Positions 4,859 to 19,088 of a DNA stretch of 24,700 nt are shown here, in pieces. The notes beneath the pieces were generated by a model, which saw only the letters and a program-made list of their open reading frames with translations, did not search any database and was not told where the DNA came from. The DNA is from a virus. Positions within the stretch are counted from its first letter, which is position 1. Every line of letters starts with the position of its first letter. The translations under genes and the position numbers were made by a program. Location of the stretch: the IMG/VR virus record IMGVR_UViG_3300034418_012413, positions 1 to 24,700 of that record; one strand, written 5' to 3'.

Positions 4859-5074
4859 TTATCTTACTAAACTATAAATTTCATCGGGACGTTTCACAGA
4901 TATAATATCGTTACCAATTTTACACTTTCCACCCTGTTTTAAAATTTTTCTCACAGTTTGTTCTTCTTTTTCACTCCACATTTCACTTAATGTGATAAGT
5001 TCTTCTTTTGTGGTGGATTGACCATTTAGTAAAATATTTTCTAGGCCACGTATTGATTGTTTTTTTAATGTCAT
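4859..5074 (-). CDS. Hypothetical protein, 71 aa
   Basis: This small charged, helical protein starts MTLKKQSIRGLENILLNG and contains SEMWSEKEEQTVRKILKQGG. There is no membrane segment or motif that I recognise. Its start overlaps the upstream gene by 4 bases (ATGA). It is the last gene before the 53-base gap that precedes queC. Confidence 0.65.
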   Translation of the reverse strand: MTLKKQSIRGLENILLNGQSTTKEELITLSEMWSEKEEQTVRKILKQGGKCKIGNDIISVKRPDEIYSLVR

Positions 5075-5523
5075 AGTTCTAGTTCTTCAAATGCAGGTTC
5101 AACTTCTTCATCCCAATAATATTCGTTATCCCAATCCACCTCAACATCAGTTTCTGCTATATCCCACATTTCAGGGCTATTGCATTGGAAAATACCAATT
5201 GGGGAAAAATTTTCATCCCAATACCTACCATTAGCCCAAGCATGAGGGTCATGTTGTTGAAGTTGAGCTACCATATTTTTAACCATTTCGTTTGGGGGAT
5301 ACCAAGCTGATTCAAATGATAAAAAATATTCGTGTTCATCCTCTCTTCCCCAATCATATCTAATCAACCACTTTGAACCAATTTTATCAATCAAATTGTT
5401 TCCTTTAGAACTAAATTGACCAATATAGTCATCTGTATCAAAATTTTGTGTTAACTTTTCAAACCAGTCGATAGTAGATTGGTTGGCGTGAAGGTGAATT
5501 TCTGTTCTACAAGTATTTGCCAT
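5071..5523 (-). CDS. Api92/DUF1281-like phage protein
   Basis: This 150-residue acidic protein starts MANTCRTEIHLHANQ and has LSFESAWYPPNEMVKNM. That arrangement resembles Api92-like (ferredoxin-like fold) phage proteins, in which a W-x-P-P-x-E segment follows a strand. The C-terminus is strongly acidic (DEEVEPAFEELEL). The similarity is from memory of the family and was not tested. Function is unknown. It overlaps both neighbours by 1-4 bases. Confidence 0.7.
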   Translation of the reverse strand: MANTCRTEIHLHANQSTIDWFEKLTQNFDTDDYIGQFSSKGNNLIDKIGSKWLIRYDWGREDEHEYFLSFESAWYPPNEMVKNMVAQLQQHDPHAWANGRYWDENFSPIGIFQCNSPEMWDIAETDVEVDWDNEYYWDEEVEPAFEELEL

Positions 5524-9837: not shown

Positions 9838-10980
9838 TTAATTTGATAAAGGTGCTTTAATTGCTGGGTGTGATTGATAGTTATCCAATATAAAATCATC
9901 CAATTCCATATGTTTTACCTGCTCTATACTTAACATACTATCATCAGAATTCCAAAATTCATTGTTAATAATTAATTTGGGTAATTCAAATGGTTCTCTA
10001 CCAATCTGTTCTTTTGCTTGTTCAATGTGATTTGAATATAAATGCGTGTCACCCAGGTTTCCAATCAACTCATCAGGAATCATATTCACTTCTTTGGCAA
10101 TGATTTCTAATAGTAAACCATAAGATGCAATGTTGAAGGGTAAACCTAAAAATGTATCTACTGAACGTTGGTTCCACATTAAAGAGATTGCTCGAGTTGG
10201 AATATTGGCTTCATCTAAATCTTTAGCCGTAATTTTTTCTAAAAATCTAGCAACTTTTTTACCTTGCATAAACAAATTTACTCGGTCGCTTATACTTAAC
10301 TCTCTCGTATAAACTTGAAATCCATAATGACAAGGTGGAAGTACCATTGAATCCAATTCTCCAACATTCCAAGCGTTAACCATCAAACGTCTTGAATCTG
10401 GGTTTGTTTTAAGGTCATTAATTAAACACGAGATTTGGTCAATAACTGTTTGGTCCATTTCATCATAAATATTTTCATATAAACCATCCGTTGAAAGATA
10501 CATTTTCTTCTTAGTCCATTTTCTCCACTGCTTACCATAGATAGGACCTAACTCACCCCACTTCTTAGCGAACTCCTTATTGGTTTTGATTTTGTTGATG
10601 AATTCTTCTTTTGTAAAATTACTTGCCTCATATGGTTGTGAAGAATTAAACTCACCTTCTTTAAATTTACCATCACCAGGCACACATTTAGACCATTCTT
10701 TAAGATATGCTTTGTAAGCATCACCATTCCAAATATTACATCCATTATCAACGAGATATTTGATATTGGTATCTCCACGTAAAAACCATAGCAACTCAGT
10801 TACCATAGTTTTGAATGCCATTTTTTTCGTAGTCAATAAAGGAAACCCTTCTGACATTTTATGTCTAATTTGTCTGCCAAATACTGAAATGGTGCCAGTA
10901 CCTGTCCGATCTTTCTTTTCTACTCCATTGTCAAGGATGTCTTGGAGGAGTGATTGGTATTGTTTATCTAAATTGTTCAT
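9838..10980 (-). CDS. thyA: Thymidylate synthase, enlarged
   Basis: ThyA converts dUMP to dTMP with methylenetetrahydrofolate. Motifs in order are DRTGTGTISVFGRQIRH (24-40), LLWFLRGDTN (63-72), GPIYGKQWRKW (145-155), the catalytic Cys217 in PPCHYGF, QRSVDTFLGLPFNIASYG (271 on), GDTHLYSNH and the C-terminus HPAIKAPLSN. At 380 residues it is about 115 longer than E. coli ThyA. Extra segments lie at about 85-143 and 224-267. All core catalytic motifs are intact, so it should be active. The start overlaps the upstream gene by 17 bases. Confidence 0.96.
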   Translation of the reverse strand: MNNLDKQYQSLLQDILDNGVEKKDRTGTGTISVFGRQIRHKMSEGFPLLTTKKMAFKTMVTELLWFLRGDTNIKYLVDNGCNIWNGDAYKAYLKEWSKCVPGDGKFKEGEFNSSQPYEASNFTKEEFINKIKTNKEFAKKWGELGPIYGKQWRKWTKKKMYLSTDGLYENIYDEMDQTVIDQISCLINDLKTNPDSRRLMVNAWNVGELDSMVLPPCHYGFQVYTRELSISDRVNLFMQGKKVARFLEKITAKDLDEANIPTRAISLMWNQRSVDTFLGLPFNIASYGLLLEIIAKEVNMIPDELIGNLGDTHLYSNHIEQAKEQIGREPFELPKLIINNEFWNSDDSMLSIEQVKHMELDDFILDNYQSHPAIKAPLSN

Positions 10981-14215: not shown

Positions 14216-14238
14216 CCTTTTGTGAGAAGTTTTTTAGT

Positions 14239-14364
14239 AGTCAGGACAGGATTCGAACCTGTAATCAATCTGTTTCGTTAGTGATTTCTCAGGATAACTA
14301 TTCTAATTGATCTCCACCTTTCGGTTGTTATCTGGATAGCGTCTACCAATTCCGCCACCTGACT
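14239..14364 (-). tRNA. tRNA-like gene 1, 126 nt, anticodon not identifiable
   Basis: On the minus strand the 7-bp acceptor stem is AGTCAGG/CCTGACT, the D-arm is GCG-GAATTGGTAGA-CGC, and the T-arm is ACAGG-TTCGAAT-CCTGT, all perfect. Between the D- and T-arms are 76 bases rather than the ~35 of a Leu-type tRNA. They contain a 40-base hairpin block (GATAAC...GTTATC, with ACC-GAAA-GGT inside) flanked by near-repeats of TATCC. I cannot fit a 5-bp anticodon stem with a 7-base loop. D- and T-arms look Leu-like. CCA is not encoded. Confidence 0.6.
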
Positions 14365-14767: not shown

Positions 14768-14790
14768 CCTTTTATGAGAAGTTTTTTAGT

Positions 14791-14869
14791 AGTCAGGGAA
14801 GGATTCGAACCTACTATGTTTAAGTATCGCCAAGGAGTACCATAACTTAGCCCATTGTGCTACCTGACT
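14791..14869 (-). tRNA. tRNA-like gene 2, 79 nt, degenerate
   Basis: The acceptor stem AGTCAGG/CCTGACT is identical to the other two. The T-arm is GTAGG-TTCGAAT-CCTTC with one mismatch. The D-arm starts GCACAATGGGCTAA but pairs poorly. The middle can fold as TATG...CATA with GTA...TAC inside, not as a normal anticodon arm. It may be a decayed or unusual tRNA. Confidence 0.5.
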
Positions 14870-14899
14870 ATGTTTATTATTTCAAAGAACTTATCTTGT

Positions 14900-14985
14900 A
14901 GTCAGGACAGGATTCGAACCTGTATGTGCTCTTTATTTAACGTTGCAACTGCACTCTCCGCGTCTACCAATTCCGCCACCTGACT
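14900..14985 (-). tRNA. tRNA-like gene 3, 86 nt, Leu-like arms, anticodon not identifiable
   Basis: Acceptor stem, D-arm and T-arm are identical to tRNA-like gene 1. Its length matches a class II (Leu-type) tRNA. The 36 bases between arms contain GTGC...GCAC but no 5-bp anticodon stem with the invariant U33. The promoter at 15016-15048 lies just upstream, and the 5' flank (AAAGTTATTTGAAATAATAA) matches that of gene 1. Confidence 0.62.
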
Positions 14986-15358: not shown

Positions 15359-15378
15359 AGAAAGGCGCCTAAGCACCT
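15359..15378 (-). terminator. Rho-independent terminator of the ncRNA
   Basis: The minus strand forms AGGTGC-TTAG-GCGCCT, a 6-bp stem with a 4-base loop, followed by TTTCTT. It closes the transcript starting behind the promoter at 15581-15613. Confidence 0.6.
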
Positions 15379-15576
15379 ATAAATTTTTTTAACATGTTTG
15401 CGACTCAGGATATTTAGTCTATTTTAGCCTGGGACATAATTATTTGGTGTTCGGTTTATCCAGTCCGACTGCTACATAATTGTGGTAAGAACGAGTTTGT
15501 AATGCATCCGTTTTAAACCCGCGTCGTAACTGGGCGGTGCCTCCGGCTGTGCCCTGGTTTTCTAAACAGGAATTAC
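15363..15576 (-). ncRNA. Candidate structured noncoding RNA, about 215 nt, unrecognised family
   Basis: The unit has a promoter (15581-15613), no ORF above about 12 codons, and a terminator (15359-15378). It is more GC-rich than its surroundings and dense in complementary segments. The 5' end CGTAA pairs with TTACG about 45 bases on, enclosing CCTG...CAGG and GCC-GGA-GGC hairpins. Later, TCGG...CCGA forms another stem. It does not match any small RNA that I know. It could act on host or phage mRNA or on a host protein. Confidence 0.58.
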
Positions 15577-15580
15577 GATG

Positions 15581-15613
15581 ATAAATATATGAAAATCAAT
15601 GAAGGTCGCCAAA
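15581..15613 (-). promoter_or_regulatory. Promoter of the candidate ncRNA
   Basis: Minus-strand TTTGG, 20 bases, TATATTTAT: the same geometry as the gene promoters, but not followed by any reading frame. Confidence 0.7.
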
Positions 15614-16147
15614 TTTTTGCGATAGATTTTTATGATCGTATATATTTTTTTCTCCTACGTAAGGGTTGGAGGCGCGGGGAAAAGGGGTTAATCTGAGGCA
15701 ATCCTCACCTCACACTCCCCATCACCTGTTTTTCATATACCATTGTCTATCAACGTATATTATGACATGTTTTAACCGAGTTGGCCATCCTTTGGCAATT
15801 CACCTCCTCCCCGTTATCAACACATTAATTAGAATGGGTAATGTTGTTATTGGATTCGTTGTACTGGGTATTATAATAATATCTCCCCTTTGAAGGGTTT
15901 TGGAATTCCTACGATTTTTTTATTTATGGGAGTTTATTGTTATTGTTAATAACATTCATTTAAACAGCTGCTATAAGCTTGTTATAAAAGTTGCCTAACA
16001 ATAGCTAAAGTTAATTGCCTTGCAAGGTCTTGTTATAATTTATGGTTAGTGTTTAAGGCAACTAACCTTAGCCTCGTACGTTATATGCAATGCTACGTTT
16101 CTACATCGTATTAAGTTTTATCGTAATATTCTTTTTGTTTTATTTTT
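15614..16147. other. Intergenic stretch, no convincing gene
   Basis: Neither strand holds a believable gene. A plus-strand frame at 15666-15893 has poor protein character apart from a final hydrophobic 19-codon piece from ATG 15833. The right part (15960-16090) contains palindromes and boxes like those between the accessory genes further on. The short hairpin TGAGG-CAAT-CCTCA lies near 15700. Confidence 0.5.
15963..16067. repeat. Palindromic attC-like element
   Basis: The plus strand has AAACAGCTGCTATAAGCTTGTT at 15963 on (the sequence family also seen at 17082 and 18286), then the inverted pair AGTTGCCT (15989-15996)/AGGCAACT (16056-16063), the palindrome CCTTGCAAGG (16018-16027), and GGTTAG/CTAACC (16044-16067). 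The box GCCTAAC at 15993-15999 fits the RYYYAAC end of integron recombination sites. Confidence 0.45.
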
Positions 16148-16564
16148 TTAAACTTCACCAACATATTTAATAATTTTTGTATTATTTTTTGTTGATAAAA
16201 ACTCTGAAGGTGTATTAACACCAAATAATGAAAAAGATGGTTTATATTTAGGGTTGGTTAATCTAAGGATATATAAATATTTAGGTTTCTCACCCAAATT
16301 TTCCTTATCAAAAACATCTAACCAATTTTTATATTCTAAACTTGAGTAAATGTAATCACCATTTCCACCTCTTTCACTTTTAAAATCATCATTAAATTTT
16401 AAATTAGGATTGGTTGAAAGGTGATATGTATCTATAACACCGTTATATACGTAAGTGTTATGATATAATTTCTCTAATTTATTCTCATCAAAACTATTAA
16501 TCAGTGTTTTTTGCTCATTCAAATATTCACGTATGGTAGTTGCTATAAATTTTCGTAATTCCAT
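16148..16564 (-). CDS. Possible ADP-ribosyltransferase-like phage protein, 138 aa
   Basis: The N-terminus MELRKFIATTIREYLNEQ is a helix often seen at the front of marine-phage proteins. Then come LYHNTYVYNGVIDTYHLST, RGGNGDYIYSS and KYLYILRLTNPKY, in the order of the LYxGT, ST, G-x-G-x-x-IY and strand motifs of ART-fold enzymes. The fold call is a pattern judgement only, and no catalytic Glu is pinned down. The gene is strongly AT-rich. Upstream, the promoter form differs from the cassette copies. Confidence 0.55.
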   Translation of the reverse strand: MELRKFIATTIREYLNEQKTLINSFDENKLEKLYHNTYVYNGVIDTYHLSTNPNLKFNDDFKSERGGNGDYIYSSLEYKNWLDVFDKENLGEKPKYLYILRLTNPKYKPSFSLFGVNTPSEFLSTKNNTKIIKYVGEV

Positions 16565-16686
16565 AATATTTTTCTTTATACATAAATATTCAAATTTTAA
16601 ATTAAGTTAAATTTCATATTGTATAAATTTATTTTTACTAATACATAACAAATGATAAACAACATTAAAACAATTGTTTAACCAAA

Positions 16687-16695
16687 CCGTTAGTG
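16687..16695. repeat. CCGTTAGTG box at gene end
   Basis: On the minus strand the stop codon TAA of the 16690 gene lies inside CACTAACGG, a weaker version of the GCCTAACGG box that ends three other genes in this region. Confidence 0.4.
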
Positions 16696-16956
16696 ATAAT
16701 GCGCCAAAAACCAATTCCAATGTTCTGGCTTCCATATTCGGCAATCACGTTTATCTTCATTCAGTCGTGGTGGAAATTTCGACACACCTTTTATTAATCC
16801 GTTTACGTGATTTCGGTGTTTATCGTACCATTTTAAAGCATTATCAATTTGTTCAGGTGTCAAAATTTCTTCGGGCAAGGCGCACATATCACTAACATTG
16901 TGTATAGCACATTGCTCTTTCGTTTTCAATCCAAGTAATTTTTTAATCCAATTCAT
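16690..16956 (-). CDS. Hypothetical cassette gene, 88 aa
   Basis: The protein starts MNWIKKLLGLKTKEQCAIHN and ends HWNWFLAHYH; it contains ALKWYDKHRNHVNGLIKG. It has no recognised family. Upstream, the promoter cassette's own ATG (16978) is followed at once by TGC-CGT-TAA, so the cassette start is not used for this gene. This looks like a joint between promoter cassette and gene. Confidence 0.62.
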   Translation of the reverse strand: MNWIKKLLGLKTKEQCAIHNVSDMCALPEEILTPEQIDNALKWYDKHRNHVNGLIKGVSKFPPRLNEDKRDCRIWKPEHWNWFLAHYH

Positions 16957-17000
16957 CGTTCTAAATTTAACGGCACATAACTCTTATTTCTTATTACATG

Positions 17001-17033
17001 GTGAATATACGAACGAAATTTTGGGGAACCAAC
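17001..17033 (-). promoter_or_regulatory. Promoter cassette copy
   Basis: Minus-strand GTTGG, 20 bases, TATATTCAC, followed by the conserved leader through AAATAAGAGTTATG. Confidence 0.73.
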
Positions 17034-17054
17034 CCTTTTGTGAGAAAGTTTTTG

Positions 17055-17100
17055 CTAACATGGTATAACAGCCATTAAAACGGCTGCTATACGCTTGTTG
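17055..17100. repeat. Hairpin repeat, copy 1
   Basis: The plus strand forms an 11-bp stem, GTATAACAGCC/GGCTGCTATAC with one G-T pair, and the loop ATTAAAAC; outer AACA pairs with TGTT. The copy at 18259-18304 is nearly the same. It follows the stop of the gene at 17110 and precedes the promoter at 17001-17033 on the minus strand. Confidence 0.65.
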
Positions 17101-17109
17101 TGCGTAATA

Positions 17110-17316
17110 CTAATCGGCACGTCCAACAGTTGTTTTTTCTCTATCAAGCAAGTCATCTTCGAGCATTTCTTTAACCTCAAAAATAGTTTCCTTACTATCC
17201 CCACGTTCTACCATCTTCATAACCTGCTCAAGTACATGATAGCTTCGGTAGCAGCTTTCATGTACCTTGTCAATTGTAGTAGGTTGTCTTCTAATGTCAG
17301 ATAAATTTAATCTCAT
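17110..17316 (-). CDS. Hypothetical cassette gene, 68 aa
   Basis: ATG at 17316 (MRLNLSDIRRQPTTIDKVHE) is preferred over the in-frame GTG at 17331, which falls in the palindromic spacer. The rest is helical and charged, ending DREKTTVGRAD. It is followed by hairpin repeat copy 1. No family is recognised. Confidence 0.6.
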   Translation of the reverse strand: MRLNLSDIRRQPTTIDKVHESCYRSYHVLEQVMKMVERGDSKETIFEVKEMLEDDLLDREKTTVGRAD

Positions 17317-17332
17317 AATCGTACTGCGCACA

Positions 17333-17414
17333 ACACAAGCTAAAAAGCATAGCCATGCGACTTTTTGTGTTTTAATGAAGCGTGATTACTTGGCTACGCT
17401 TCTTAGCCAAACCG
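17333..17414. repeat. Palindromic spacer between cassette genes
   Basis: It holds a perfect 7-bp inverted repeat, TTGGCTA (17390-17396)/TAGCCAA (17404-17410), and a second nested hairpin built on ACACAA (17333-17338)/TTGTGT (17365-17370). On the minus strand it opens with GCTTAAC, which fits RYYYAAC, and ends near GTTGTGC. Confidence 0.5.
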
Positions 17415-17675
17415 TTAAGCTTCATTGTTAATCCAATCTATAATTCTCCGCAAGAATATAATTTTATCGCTTCTGTAAGGTGTCATTGTCTTACCAAGTT
17501 TAGGGTTTGTTTCTTGCTTTAATTCGCTTTTAGCCCAATTAAGCAAGTCAAGTCTATTCTTTTGAAACAACGAAAGCCTAGCATTGTATAAAACCAATAG
17601 CTTATCTATTGCTTCATCCTTGCTTATATCGTCTCTAATTAGGTCTGTTACTATATCAAATATTTTATCTTCCAT
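17415..17675 (-). CDS. Hypothetical cassette gene, 86 aa
   Basis: This helical protein starts MEDKIFDIVTDLIRDDISKD and ends LRRIIDWINNEA. Its TAA stop lies inside the GCTTAACGG box. It starts 24 bases after a GCCTAACGG box. No family is recognised. Confidence 0.65.
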   Translation of the reverse strand: MEDKIFDIVTDLIRDDISKDEAIDKLLVLYNARLSLFQKNRLDLLNWAKSELKQETNPKLGKTMTPYRSDKIIFLRRIIDWINNEA

Positions 17676-17698
17676 ATCGCTACTGTTTTTATACTTGT

Positions 17699-17707
17699 CC
17701 GTTAGGC
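17699..17707. repeat. CCGTTAGGC box
   Basis: On the minus strand GCCTAACGG follows the stop at 17712 after 4 bases. It is followed by AAAAACAGTAGCGAT before the next ATG, shared with the box at 18770-18778 (AAGAACAGTAGCGGAT). Confidence 0.5.
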
Positions 17708-17711
17708 CACA

Positions 17712-17924
17712 TTAAAAAGAGAGTGCGTTATCAAAACATTCGTTTTCCTTACAAAGTCTTTTTGCTTCGGCAAATGTATAACATCTGCCAACGTGGGTTT
17801 GTTCTCTGTCATTTTTAAATACTTCGTACTTGCCAATAAGTTGTGGGTGTTCTGATTCTTGGATGAAGCAACCTTTATAAAGCCACTCACCTACTTCTAT
17901 TTGTTTTGGTTTTTCTACTGCCAT
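17712..17924 (-). CDS. Hypothetical cassette gene, 70 aa
   Basis: The protein starts MAVEKPKQIEVGEWLYKGCF and contains KYEVFKNDREQTHVGRCYTF and CKENECFDNALSF. Its beta-strand pattern and four cysteines suggest a small domain. A second frame over the same bases is a shadow. No family is recognised. Confidence 0.62.
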   Translation of the reverse strand: MAVEKPKQIEVGEWLYKGCFIQESEHPQLIGKYEVFKNDREQTHVGRCYTFAEAKRLCKENECFDNALSF

Positions 17925-17963
17925 TTGTTTTTAATTTTAAGTTCGCACCATTCATATACTTAA

Positions 17964-17972
17964 CCGTTAGGC
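17964..17972. repeat. CCGTTAGGC box
   Basis: Minus-strand GCCTAACGG lies 6 bases after the stop of the 17979 gene, followed by the pair TTAAG...CTTAA before the next gene. Confidence 0.5.
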
Positions 17973-17978
17973 GTAATG

Positions 17979-18182
17979 TTAAGAAAAATCAACATTAGTA
18001 ACATCACCACACTCTTCGCAAAATTGAAAGCTAAGGTCTTTATAAGAGCCTTGTTTGTCATCTATGCCTATGCAATGTTTATCCCATCTAATTGAGTTTT
18101 CAGCACCACAAGCACTACACACAACAATAGGTATGATTAATGTCTGTTCTGTGTTATTTTCTAAGTTTTGTTCTTTATTCAT
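17979..18182 (-). CDS. Small zinc-ribbon-like protein, 67 aa
   Basis: Two CxxC knuckles, CSACGAENSIRW and CEECGDVTNVDFS, are spaced about 32 residues apart, with a further Cys and His between (KHCIG). It looks like a zinc ribbon. The start lies directly behind a promoter cassette (AAGAGTTATG). Nucleic-acid or protein binding is inferred. Confidence 0.68.
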   Translation of the reverse strand: MNKEQNLENNTEQTLIIPIVVCSACGAENSIRWDKHCIGIDDKQGSYKDLSFQFCEECGDVTNVDFS

Positions 18183-18204
18183 AACTCTTATTTCTTATTA
18201 CATG

Positions 18205-18237
18205 GTAAATATACGAACGAGGTCTCGGGGAGCCAAA
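18205..18237 (-). promoter_or_regulatory. Promoter cassette copy
   Basis: Minus-strand TTTGG, 20 bases, TATATTTAC, then the conserved leader to the ATG at 18182. Confidence 0.76.
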
Positions 18238-18258
18238 TCTTTTGTGAGAAGTTTTTTA

Positions 18259-18304
18259 CTAACATAATATAACAGCCATTAAAACGGCTTTTATACGCTT
18301 GTTG
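18259..18304. repeat. Hairpin repeat, copy 2
   Basis: The plus strand has TATAACAGCC/GGCTTTTATA with loop ATTAAAAC, flanked by AACA and TGTT: a near copy of 17055-17100. It sits in the same position, between the last gene of a unit and the next promoter cassette. Confidence 0.65.
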
Positions 18305-18314
18305 GCAGCAATGC

Positions 18315-18722
18315 CTAATAAAGGTCTTCGCTGAACAACTGTTTTAGTGGTTTATCAATCTGTTTCGCTTCGTAGGCTATTTGTGCCGCTTCAATTCTAT
18401 CAACAAATCTGTCTTTGTTGGTTATGAATCCTTGCTTTTCCCTTTCTTCAAGTGCAATACTTTTCTTAACCACCAATGTTTTATCATAACCAAGTGCTTT
18501 ACCTATGCTTTGAACAGAAGAAAAGCAATTGTGATGTCTTCGTCCTGAAACAACAAAGCCAGATTCTACATTCTTCGGTTGATGATTGTATTTATTCCCA
18601 TCATTGAACCATATAGCGGCACAAATAATGAACTCGAAAGGCACGTGCTGCCAACAATGTATAAAACCAATAGCGGTTTCATCGGTTGGCGAAGGTTTGT
18701 GCTGTTTACTAATATCTGTCAT
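18315..18722 (-). CDS. Hypothetical protein, 135 aa, phage-type
   Basis: FEFIICAAIWFNDGNKY and SGFVVSGRRHHNCF form the core, followed by EKQGFITNKDRFVDRIEAAQ and the C-terminal FSEDLY. From memory, proteins with this GFxTxxxRFVDRxEA segment and a terminal SEDLY occur in many phages and bacteria with unknown function. It is the second gene behind the promoter at 19050-19082 and ends just before hairpin repeat copy 2. Confidence 0.68.
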   Translation of the reverse strand: MTDISKQHKPSPTDETAIGFIHCWQHVPFEFIICAAIWFNDGNKYNHQPKNVESGFVVSGRRHHNCFSSVQSIGKALGYDKTLVVKKSIALEEREKQGFITNKDRFVDRIEAAQIAYEAKQIDKPLKQLFSEDLY

Positions 18723-18769
18723 ATTTTGAAGGTTTATCGTTATTTATCCGCTACTGTTCTTATGCGTAG

Positions 18770-18778
18770 CCGTTAGGC
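18770..18778. repeat. CCGTTAGGC box
   Basis: On the minus strand the TAA stop of the 18773 gene is part of GCCTAACGG. The following GCTAC...GTAGC can form a short stem. Confidence 0.5.
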
Positions 18779-19027
18779 GCAATGCCGTGAAAGAAAATCA
18801 ATACATTCAGCGTAATTAAATAAAGGTCTACACACTTGCGTTTGTCCCTGTATAATTGAACGCATCTCTTTTGCCTTATCTCTGTCTGTCCAATTACGCT
18901 TCCAAGTTGGGTCAAACAACATGATAAATGCCTCAGCTAATATTTTATCATCTAAGGCAGATGCGCCTAACAATGTATAACCGTCAGGCTTATTTTCTAC
19001 ATTTTTGAAAGTTTCTTCTGTATTCAT
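18773..19027 (-). CDS. Hypothetical cassette gene, 84 aa
   Basis: The protein starts MNTEETFKNVENKPDGYTLL and contains ALDDKILAEAFIMLFDPTWK and ends ECIDFLSRHCA. It is mostly helical and starts behind a promoter cassette. No family is recognised. Confidence 0.65.
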   Translation of the reverse strand: MNTEETFKNVENKPDGYTLLGASALDDKILAEAFIMLFDPTWKRNWTDRDKAKEMRSIIQGQTQVCRPLFNYAECIDFLSRHCA

Positions 19028-19049
19028 AACTCTTATTTCTTATTACATG

Positions 19050-19082
19050 GTAAATATACGAACGAAATTTTGGGGAGCCAAA
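19050..19082 (-). promoter_or_regulatory. Promoter cassette copy
   Basis: Minus-strand TTTGG, 20 bases, TATATTTAC, and the leader up to the ATG at 19027. It marks the right edge of the accessory region. Confidence 0.76.
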
Positions 19083-19088
19083 CCTTTT

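Follow-up and report, generated by a model that had tools for sequence, protein, structure and literature searches.

A candidate integron-type cassette array without its own integrase in a phage of Bacteroidota

Integrons are the closest described relatives of the locus treated here, a run of eight small genes at positions 15,960-19,027 of the IMG/VR virus record IMGVR_UViG_3300034418_012413. In the sedentary chromosomal integrons of Vibrio, Xanthomonas and others, cassettes form long arrays of one orientation with attC hairpins, R boxes are complementary within their own unit, and a recombinase is found at one end. Integrons of the Treponema denticola type have an inverted integrase, a true IntI that is co-directional with the cassettes. 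For Bacteroidetes, the output of IntegronFinder 2.0 was limited to In0 elements and a single complete integron, in Salinibacter (PMC9024848), and the 11 attC models of another study include none from Bacteroidetes (PMC8352920). Clusters of attC sites lacking integrases (CALINs) have already been published for phages, among them P12002L, whose site P12002L_attC2 recombines with attI1 through IntI1 (Qi 2023, PMC9892861). These are integrase-less attC clusters in lytic phages, like the one proposed here, and our covariance model R1 (see below), which was built independently, finds the P12002L sites. The accessible part of that report speaks of "divergent directions" only, and not of an inverted orientation, start codons within sites, a host recombinase or cassette transposition between sister phages.

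The window, by which we mean the entire record of 24.7 kb, carries phage genes nearly all on the minus strand. With a probability of about 80%, we read positions 15,960-19,027 as an integron-type cassette array without its own integrase, i.e. a CALIN, in a marine, lytic phage of Bacteroidota, whose units are moved at AA^C. In gene direction, a unit would begin at the C^GG of one attC-like site, take in this site and its gene, and end with the AA^ of the following box. Five boxes of the form (C/T)TAACGG are present on the minus strand (18770-18776, 17964-17970, 17699-17705, 17412-17418 and 16687-16693); they make up five of the seven minus-strand YYAACGG matches of the window and are packed into 2.1 kb. 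At 18773, 17415 and 16690 the TAA stop codon of an open reading frame (ORF) lies inside the box. Two near-identical hairpin elements, at 17055-17100 and 18259-18304, belong to repeat family D9. An earlier note on this DNA, made from its letters alone, had pointed out the boxes, the three stop codons and the two hairpins, all of which were found where it had placed them. A third hairpin that it listed at 15963 is a degenerate copy of D9 (15949-15983), and it adjoins a strong full site at 15988-16090.

Box frequency by itself is weakly above chance (10 matches vs 5.0 expected). We therefore built an independent structural test, and it is the structure model together with the complementarity of unit ends that carries the evidence. 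A 17-mer, CTAACGGTTTGGCTATG, was derived from the boxes of the window and of the related contig L009 and used to search GTDB genomes. It gave 113 stretches, and nearly all of the 80 shown belong to Bacteroidota; by our own estimate, chance would yield about 30 matches in the whole collection, without taxonomic bias. The flanking sequences show imperfect hairpins, 60-140 nt long, with GTT(A/G) at their end. From 33 short chromosomal Bacteroidota sites, and no phage sites, we built the covariance model R1. In its alignment, 93% of the cells are paired and 92 two-sided changes are seen vs 33.8 after shuffling; the structure collapses if the alignment is slid by one column. Columns 23/59 and 31/53 of alignment A1 hold a G-U pair on the folding strand in 26 and 28 of the 33 sites, respectively, which leaves A-C mismatches on the other strand. 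Like the extrahelical bases of canonical attC sites, these near-constant positions may serve to label the strand.

Applied to the window, R1 finds six attC-like sites across 15,988-18,782, all on the minus strand, which agrees with the attC character that the boxes had first suggested. The best match is a site of 102 nt at 17323-17424 (E 1e-12). It had been overlooked in the earlier note, as had the long site at 18644-18782 (E 5.6e-5), whose loop holds the start codon of gene B, whose stem is TAAGAACAGTAGCGG / CCGCTATTGGTTTTATA and whose AA^C crossover is predicted at 18773/18772. The site at 16638-16699 (E 2e-8) represents, in structured form, a CACTAACGG box of that note, and the one at 15988-16090 (E 1.2e-7), at the end of the array, has a 19-bp stem in the DNA fold. 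Two short hairpin sites, each followed by a phage-type promoter, lie at 18252-18311 (E 0.002) and 17048-17107 (E 0.014, or 5.8e-4 without filters) and are near-identical to each other. All have RYYYAAC / GTTRRRY-like boxes around an imperfect hairpin with an unpaired spacer, as expected for integron attC sites; the boxes are relaxed relative to this consensus, the constant part being YAAC/GTT. The window thus exceeds the two attC sites asked of a CALIN, and no recombinase match was obtained in it.

With respect to specificity, R1 gave one match in 91 other related-phage loci (1.2 Mb), from which we conclude that false positives are rare and that the array is a local acquisition of the window lineage. 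The match in question (L098, 3235-3305; E 5.6e-11) identifies another phage with such a site. The idea of a phage-encoded accessory-gene system, put forward for this region before, is not supported in that form, given the lack of a recombinase in the window and the rarity of sites among its relatives. Simpler searches were uninformative: the exact 36-nt hairpin pattern had no match in IMG/VR, and blastn with a consensus site against phages and plasmids returned chance-level matches only. Detection of these hairpin sites needs a covariance model.

The ends of the units behave as those of integron cassettes. Of seven boxes in the window, five are most complementary to the GTT arm that opens their own unit; the gene 7 unit, for instance, has the complementary end pair GTTAGTGATATGTGCGCC..GGCGCATTATCACTAAC, and the gene A unit starts with GTTAGGCGCATCTGCC (at 18971) and ends with GGCATTGCGCCTAAC. 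For 95 phage units, complementarity between own start and own end amounts to 4.32 of 7 nt, as compared with 2.67 (sd 0.13) after shuffling and 2.55 of 7 across a single site. The corresponding values for chromosomes are 5.53 of 7 for own units (shuffled 2.75) and 2.48 across a single site. Own-end complementarity without cross-site complementarity is the integron cassette signature, because both ends derive from one circle. A unit is therefore made up of a site followed by its gene and is cut at AA^C, with the cut often falling directly behind the TAA stop, as at the three positions given above; the box would thereby often supply the stop codon. We also considered that the complementary box at the start of gene B is a chance match or a fusion with the next cassette; both were excluded by the precise breakpoints and the own-unit complementarity, which assign the site to the gene that follows it.

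As had been advised at the outset, flavobacterial chromosomes were searched, and the same sites were found there, beside a recombinase. R1 gives 143 matches in 20 loci of Bacteroidota chromosomes, as dense arrays with a single strand per array; in marine members, the arrays pack 10-20 cassettes or more into 20 kb. The cassette reading and the host-repeat reading, posed before as alternatives, prove to be the same. A tyrosine recombinase (345-405 amino acids) adjoins the arrays; its gene lies upstream and is co-directional with the cassettes. A convergent arrangement was considered and excluded, as the ORFs show genes on the strand opposite the motif. In several genomes a hairpin and then GTTRRRY lie between the recombinase stop codon and the first cassette, a candidate attI. 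The best NCBIfam match is NF040815 (XerA / "site-specific tyrosine recombinase/integron integrase"), with 206-230 bits for six proteins at a cut-off of 220; the family name carries no tested function here, and the linkage to attC arrays in Bacteroidota sets our proteins apart. Against the IntI model TIGR02249 they score 180-212 bits, below the cut-off of 265. Alignment of IntI4 (2a3v) falls into two stretches and leaves residues 181-245, the segment with the IntI insert, unmatched. With sedentary integrons the chromosomal arrays share their single orientation, the attC hairpins with complementary own-unit R boxes and a recombinase at one end. The Bacteroidota recombinase itself differs from that of sedentary integrons: it is XerA-like, lacks the IntI insert, is extended by about 100 amino acids at its N-terminus and is co-directional with the cassettes; with the Treponema denticola type it shares the co-directional arrangement and differs in lacking a true IntI, in the sites and in the hosts. 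A full-length-scoring recombinase with an internal TAG or TAA was seen in many genomes, namely G097, G128, G081, G132, G155, G156, G147, G123, G150 and G151, which may reflect decay, programmed readthrough or a search artefact.

The enzyme acting on the phage cassettes would most likely be such a host XerA/IntI-like tyrosine recombinase, working in trans on folded single-stranded phage DNA. In a sample of 120 Flavobacteriaceae genomes, its profile is matched in 84, mostly as a single copy, and often the opposite strand of the recombinase contig carries R1 sites grouped within tens of kb. Alternatively, a canonical IntI, class 1-like or from other host species, might move the cassettes. The recombination of P12002L_attC2 by IntI1 mentioned above and the broad recognition of attC sites by IntI proteins, which is established knowledge, are in line with this proposal. 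Among 50 site-bearing genomes, none encodes an IntI above the TIGR02249 cut-off, and the recombinase without IntI insert adjoins arrays in at least nine of them, so that we regard a canonical IntI as unlikely.

Natural junctions point to mobility of the units. The suggestion to compare gene content with related phages proved fruitful, as units are swapped in the sister phage L009: for 5.1 kb, through the AAC at window 18301, it matches the window at 96.1% identity, and beyond this point it is unrelated. This AAC box (18301-18303, minus strand) is the point of divergence and coincides with the predicted AA^C crossover. Contigs L329 and L337 are 99.3% and 98.9% identical on two sides and have different units between AAC boxes, and a 366-nt stretch common to L294 and L329 ends at an AAC. 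The clearest case comes from P12002L and P12002S, isolated lytic phages of a single Polaribacter strain. Here, 4,988 identical nt stop exactly at AAC (..GCAGGTAAC). The P12002L unit behind that AAC, consisting of a site and a DNA methyltransferase gene, recurs with 968 identical nt in P12002S, one position further, behind another methyltransferase unit and again bounded by AAC. In its accessible part, the paper on these genomes describes them as syntenic and does not mention transposition of a unit (PMC4615864). At all four natural junctions, then, exchange is placed at AA/C (G^TT on the other strand), and these comparisons show the units to be mobile through site-specific recombination that is precise at AA^C. 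As a side observation, P12002L (L261; 29-32 kb and 37-39 kb) and P12002S (L384) hold several different DNA methyltransferase genes as site-bounded units, which suggests shuffled anti-restriction cargo. Phage cassettes would then be a route by which anti-restriction methyltransferases shuffle between phages.

Could such exchanges arise by ordinary homologous recombination between repeated hairpins, as in phage mosaicism, without any site-specific recombinase? Phages recombine readily, the sites have conserved arms in common, no recombinase was found in the site-bearing phages, and the BLAST breakpoints examined are few (27). Yet the breaks are nucleotide-precise and fall on one side of one box, with only about 4 nt of common sequence at the P12002L/P12002S junction. 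Moreover, 1.5 nt or less separates four of the 27 internal alignment ends from an AAC, while no end comes so near a GTT, and homologous recombination would not be expected to yield end complementarity specific to each unit. We consider this explanation decidedly improbable.

Phage and chromosomal cassettes differ in the strand on which the site folds. In chromosomes, genes run opposite to the AACGG..GTT strand in 76 of 80 intervals, which is the canonical orientation with the recombinogenic bottom strand antisense. In viral contigs, genes run along this strand in 80 of 85 intervals, and in the window, the phage-like contig L155 and P12002L they do so in 8 of 8 (phages 88/93 same vs chromosomes 76/80 opposite; Fisher p 1.6e-37). 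The integron rule that the folded strand lies opposite the gene thus holds in the chromosomes and is reversed in the phages including the window, where the recombinogenic strand is the coding strand. It follows that the site stands in front of its gene in a phage cassette and behind it in a chromosomal one: it is a 5' leader in the former vs a 3' tail in the latter. In Vibrio, excision goes up when the recombinogenic strand is moved to the lagging template (PMC11023631). By extension, the phage inversion may raise the turnover of cassettes, and it probably keeps phage and chromosomal pools separate as well; the phage arrays offer a natural test of the integron strand rule.

The orientation bears on the proposal that the sites are RNA elements, such as terminators or hairpins for processing or translation control, which have spread as repeats, with swapping being incidental. 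It draws on the site strand, which in phages is the coding strand and folds more stably than the complementary strand at 144 of 171 viral sites, on the conserved pairs of G-U type and on the start codons within sites (see below). However, the chromosomal site strand is antisense to 76 of 80 genes, so that an RNA role cannot explain the common structure, and neither complementary unit ends nor precise junctions fit this idea. We think it very improbable that the sites are RNA elements in the first place; a secondary RNA role in phages is possible. That the orientation difference is an artefact of classing contigs as viral can hardly hold: most phage sites do stem from predicted viral contigs of IMG/VR, but the inversion is seen in the isolated phages P12002L and P12002S and in the window, and most viral contigs are coded on a single strand, the one that also bears the sites (88/93 vs 4/80).

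Many long phage sites contain an in-frame start codon, which would add a site-encoded N-terminal tag. Counting ATGs followed by an open frame of 30 or more codons beyond GTT, we found them in 35 of 74 long phage sites as compared with 4 of 81 long chromosomal ones. In 29 of the 35 phage sites the frame is frame 0, in which GTT is read as a codon (p 2e-9). Among 34 ORFs there are 51 pairs with similar tags, and the bodies are similar in one pair. For example, L009, L155 and L281 have the tag MSK(E/K)Q..KALHIGG in common, and the N-terminus of gene 7 (MNWIKKLLGLKTKEQCAIHN) resembles that of a unit in L303 (MNWIKKLFNKKEGKQCAIHN). Gene B has about 20-25 extra N-terminal residues relative to its homologs in phages pT24 and PAU, which start near the GTT arm of the site. 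The conserved arms explain the similar tags partly, but not the fixed frame or the common loop part. Given the reading frames observed, the genes would be translated with a short site-encoded tag; to our knowledge, these are the first natural recombination sites with a portable start codon and tag. A related observation concerns L155, a contig from a metagenome-assembled genome, in which a TTCGAAGGTATCAAC..GTTGATACC-type element occurs twice (2425-2590 and 4940-5220), once with an ORF inside the stem; the latter copy is apparently a site whose loop holds an entire gene.

Taken together, the unit signature, the hairpin and the cut point are those of an integron cassette, and the strand relation in phages and the missing insert of the linked recombinase are not. 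Several findings weigh against the interpretation as recombinase-driven cassettes. The array-linked recombinase lacks the insert thought to be essential for attC recombination. In the 120 genomes, its presence or absence is uncorrelated with that of R1 sites, probably because only 41 candidates were scored per genome, with the loss of long sites. No recombinase was found in 80 site-bearing viral loci. In the window, R1 scores no full site at the boxes near 17,968 and 17,703. Finally, unrelated bodies with a common tag imply exchange at the GTT box as well; cutting at AA^C would keep tag and body together.

With these points in mind, we lean, at little better than even odds, towards a broader scheme: a widespread integron-like system of Bacteroidota, missed by current tools and served by an XerA/IntI-like recombinase without the insert, together with a separate, inverted pool of phage cassettes whose sites also act as translation leaders, joining a fixed-frame tag to interchangeable bodies. 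The data suggest that phages have a pool of mobile genes of their own, most of which escapes present integron searches. If the array-linked recombinase works on the sites, then attC recombination can do without the IntI insert; such an activity would also bear on the origin of integrons from Xer recombinases. In the open-access literature we found no description of chromosomal arrays with a recombinase of this type, of the orientation inversion, of start codons within sites or of the P12002L/P12002S unit transposition, an absence that is no proof.

The eight ORFs of the array are all on the minus strand, and seven are of unknown function. Gene A (18773-19027) encodes 84 amino acids; gene B (18315-18722, 135 amino acids) belongs to phrog_839 and has homologs in pT24 and PAU; and gene 3 (17979-18182, 67 amino acids) is zinc-ribbon-like, with sub-threshold Pfam matches. 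They are followed by gene 4 (17712-17924, 70 amino acids), gene 5 (17415-17675, 86 amino acids), gene 6 (17110-17331, 73 amino acids), gene 7 (16690-16956, 88 amino acids), whose N-terminus MNWIKKL..KEQCAIHN is the one also found in the otherwise unrelated L303 unit, and gene 8 (16148-16564, 138 amino acids). The R-type box CTAACGG of the gene 3 unit (17964-17970) has a weak own-unit partner, GTTGTGTGTAGTGC, at 18125. For that of the gene 4 unit (17699-17705), the 3' arm is GCTATTGGTTTTATACAATGCTAGG near 17,582, and no own-unit partner was found. None of the eight genes passes a curated Pfam cut-off. The array DNA had no match in 50,697 phage records, and gene 6 none in plasmids.

A repeat of 57 nt (D1) occurs in nine copies in the window, six before ordinary phage genes and three in the array, namely before gene A (19032-19088) and inside the units of gene 3 (18187-18243) and gene 7 (16983-17039), all on the minus strand. 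Read in the minus direction it contains TTTGG(C)..TATATTTAC, which we take to fit the Bacteroidota -33/-7 consensus. The latter two array copies follow the short sites at 18252-18311 and 17048-17107, which places these promoters inside units. In each of the three cases the next site lacks its left arm, which the promoter leader seems to have replaced. The earlier view that every unit starts with a phage promoter is correct for sub-arrays, each headed by a promoter of phage type. Of the three copies, however, two are enclosed within site-bounded units and so are not provided by the phage ahead of the array. From these positions the promoters would drive expression of the three sub-arrays.

Elsewhere, the window encodes a ribonucleotide reductase, a thymidylate synthase, queuosine genes, an endolysin and a holin. 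Between the tRNA genes and the array, about 600 nt (15360-15960) hold structured-looking sequence and no convincing gene, and no Rfam family reaches gathering level there. Three tRNA-like genes are located on the minus strand at 14238-14364, 14789-14869 and 14899-14985; ARAGORN calls the Gln gene only. The first of them measures 127 nt and matches the full tRNA model, which implies an insertion of about 40-50 nt (an intron or an odd variable arm). The thymidylate synthase (9838-10980, minus strand; 380 amino acids) aligns to a 279-position stretch of phrog_160, which suggests an internal insertion of about 100 amino acids.

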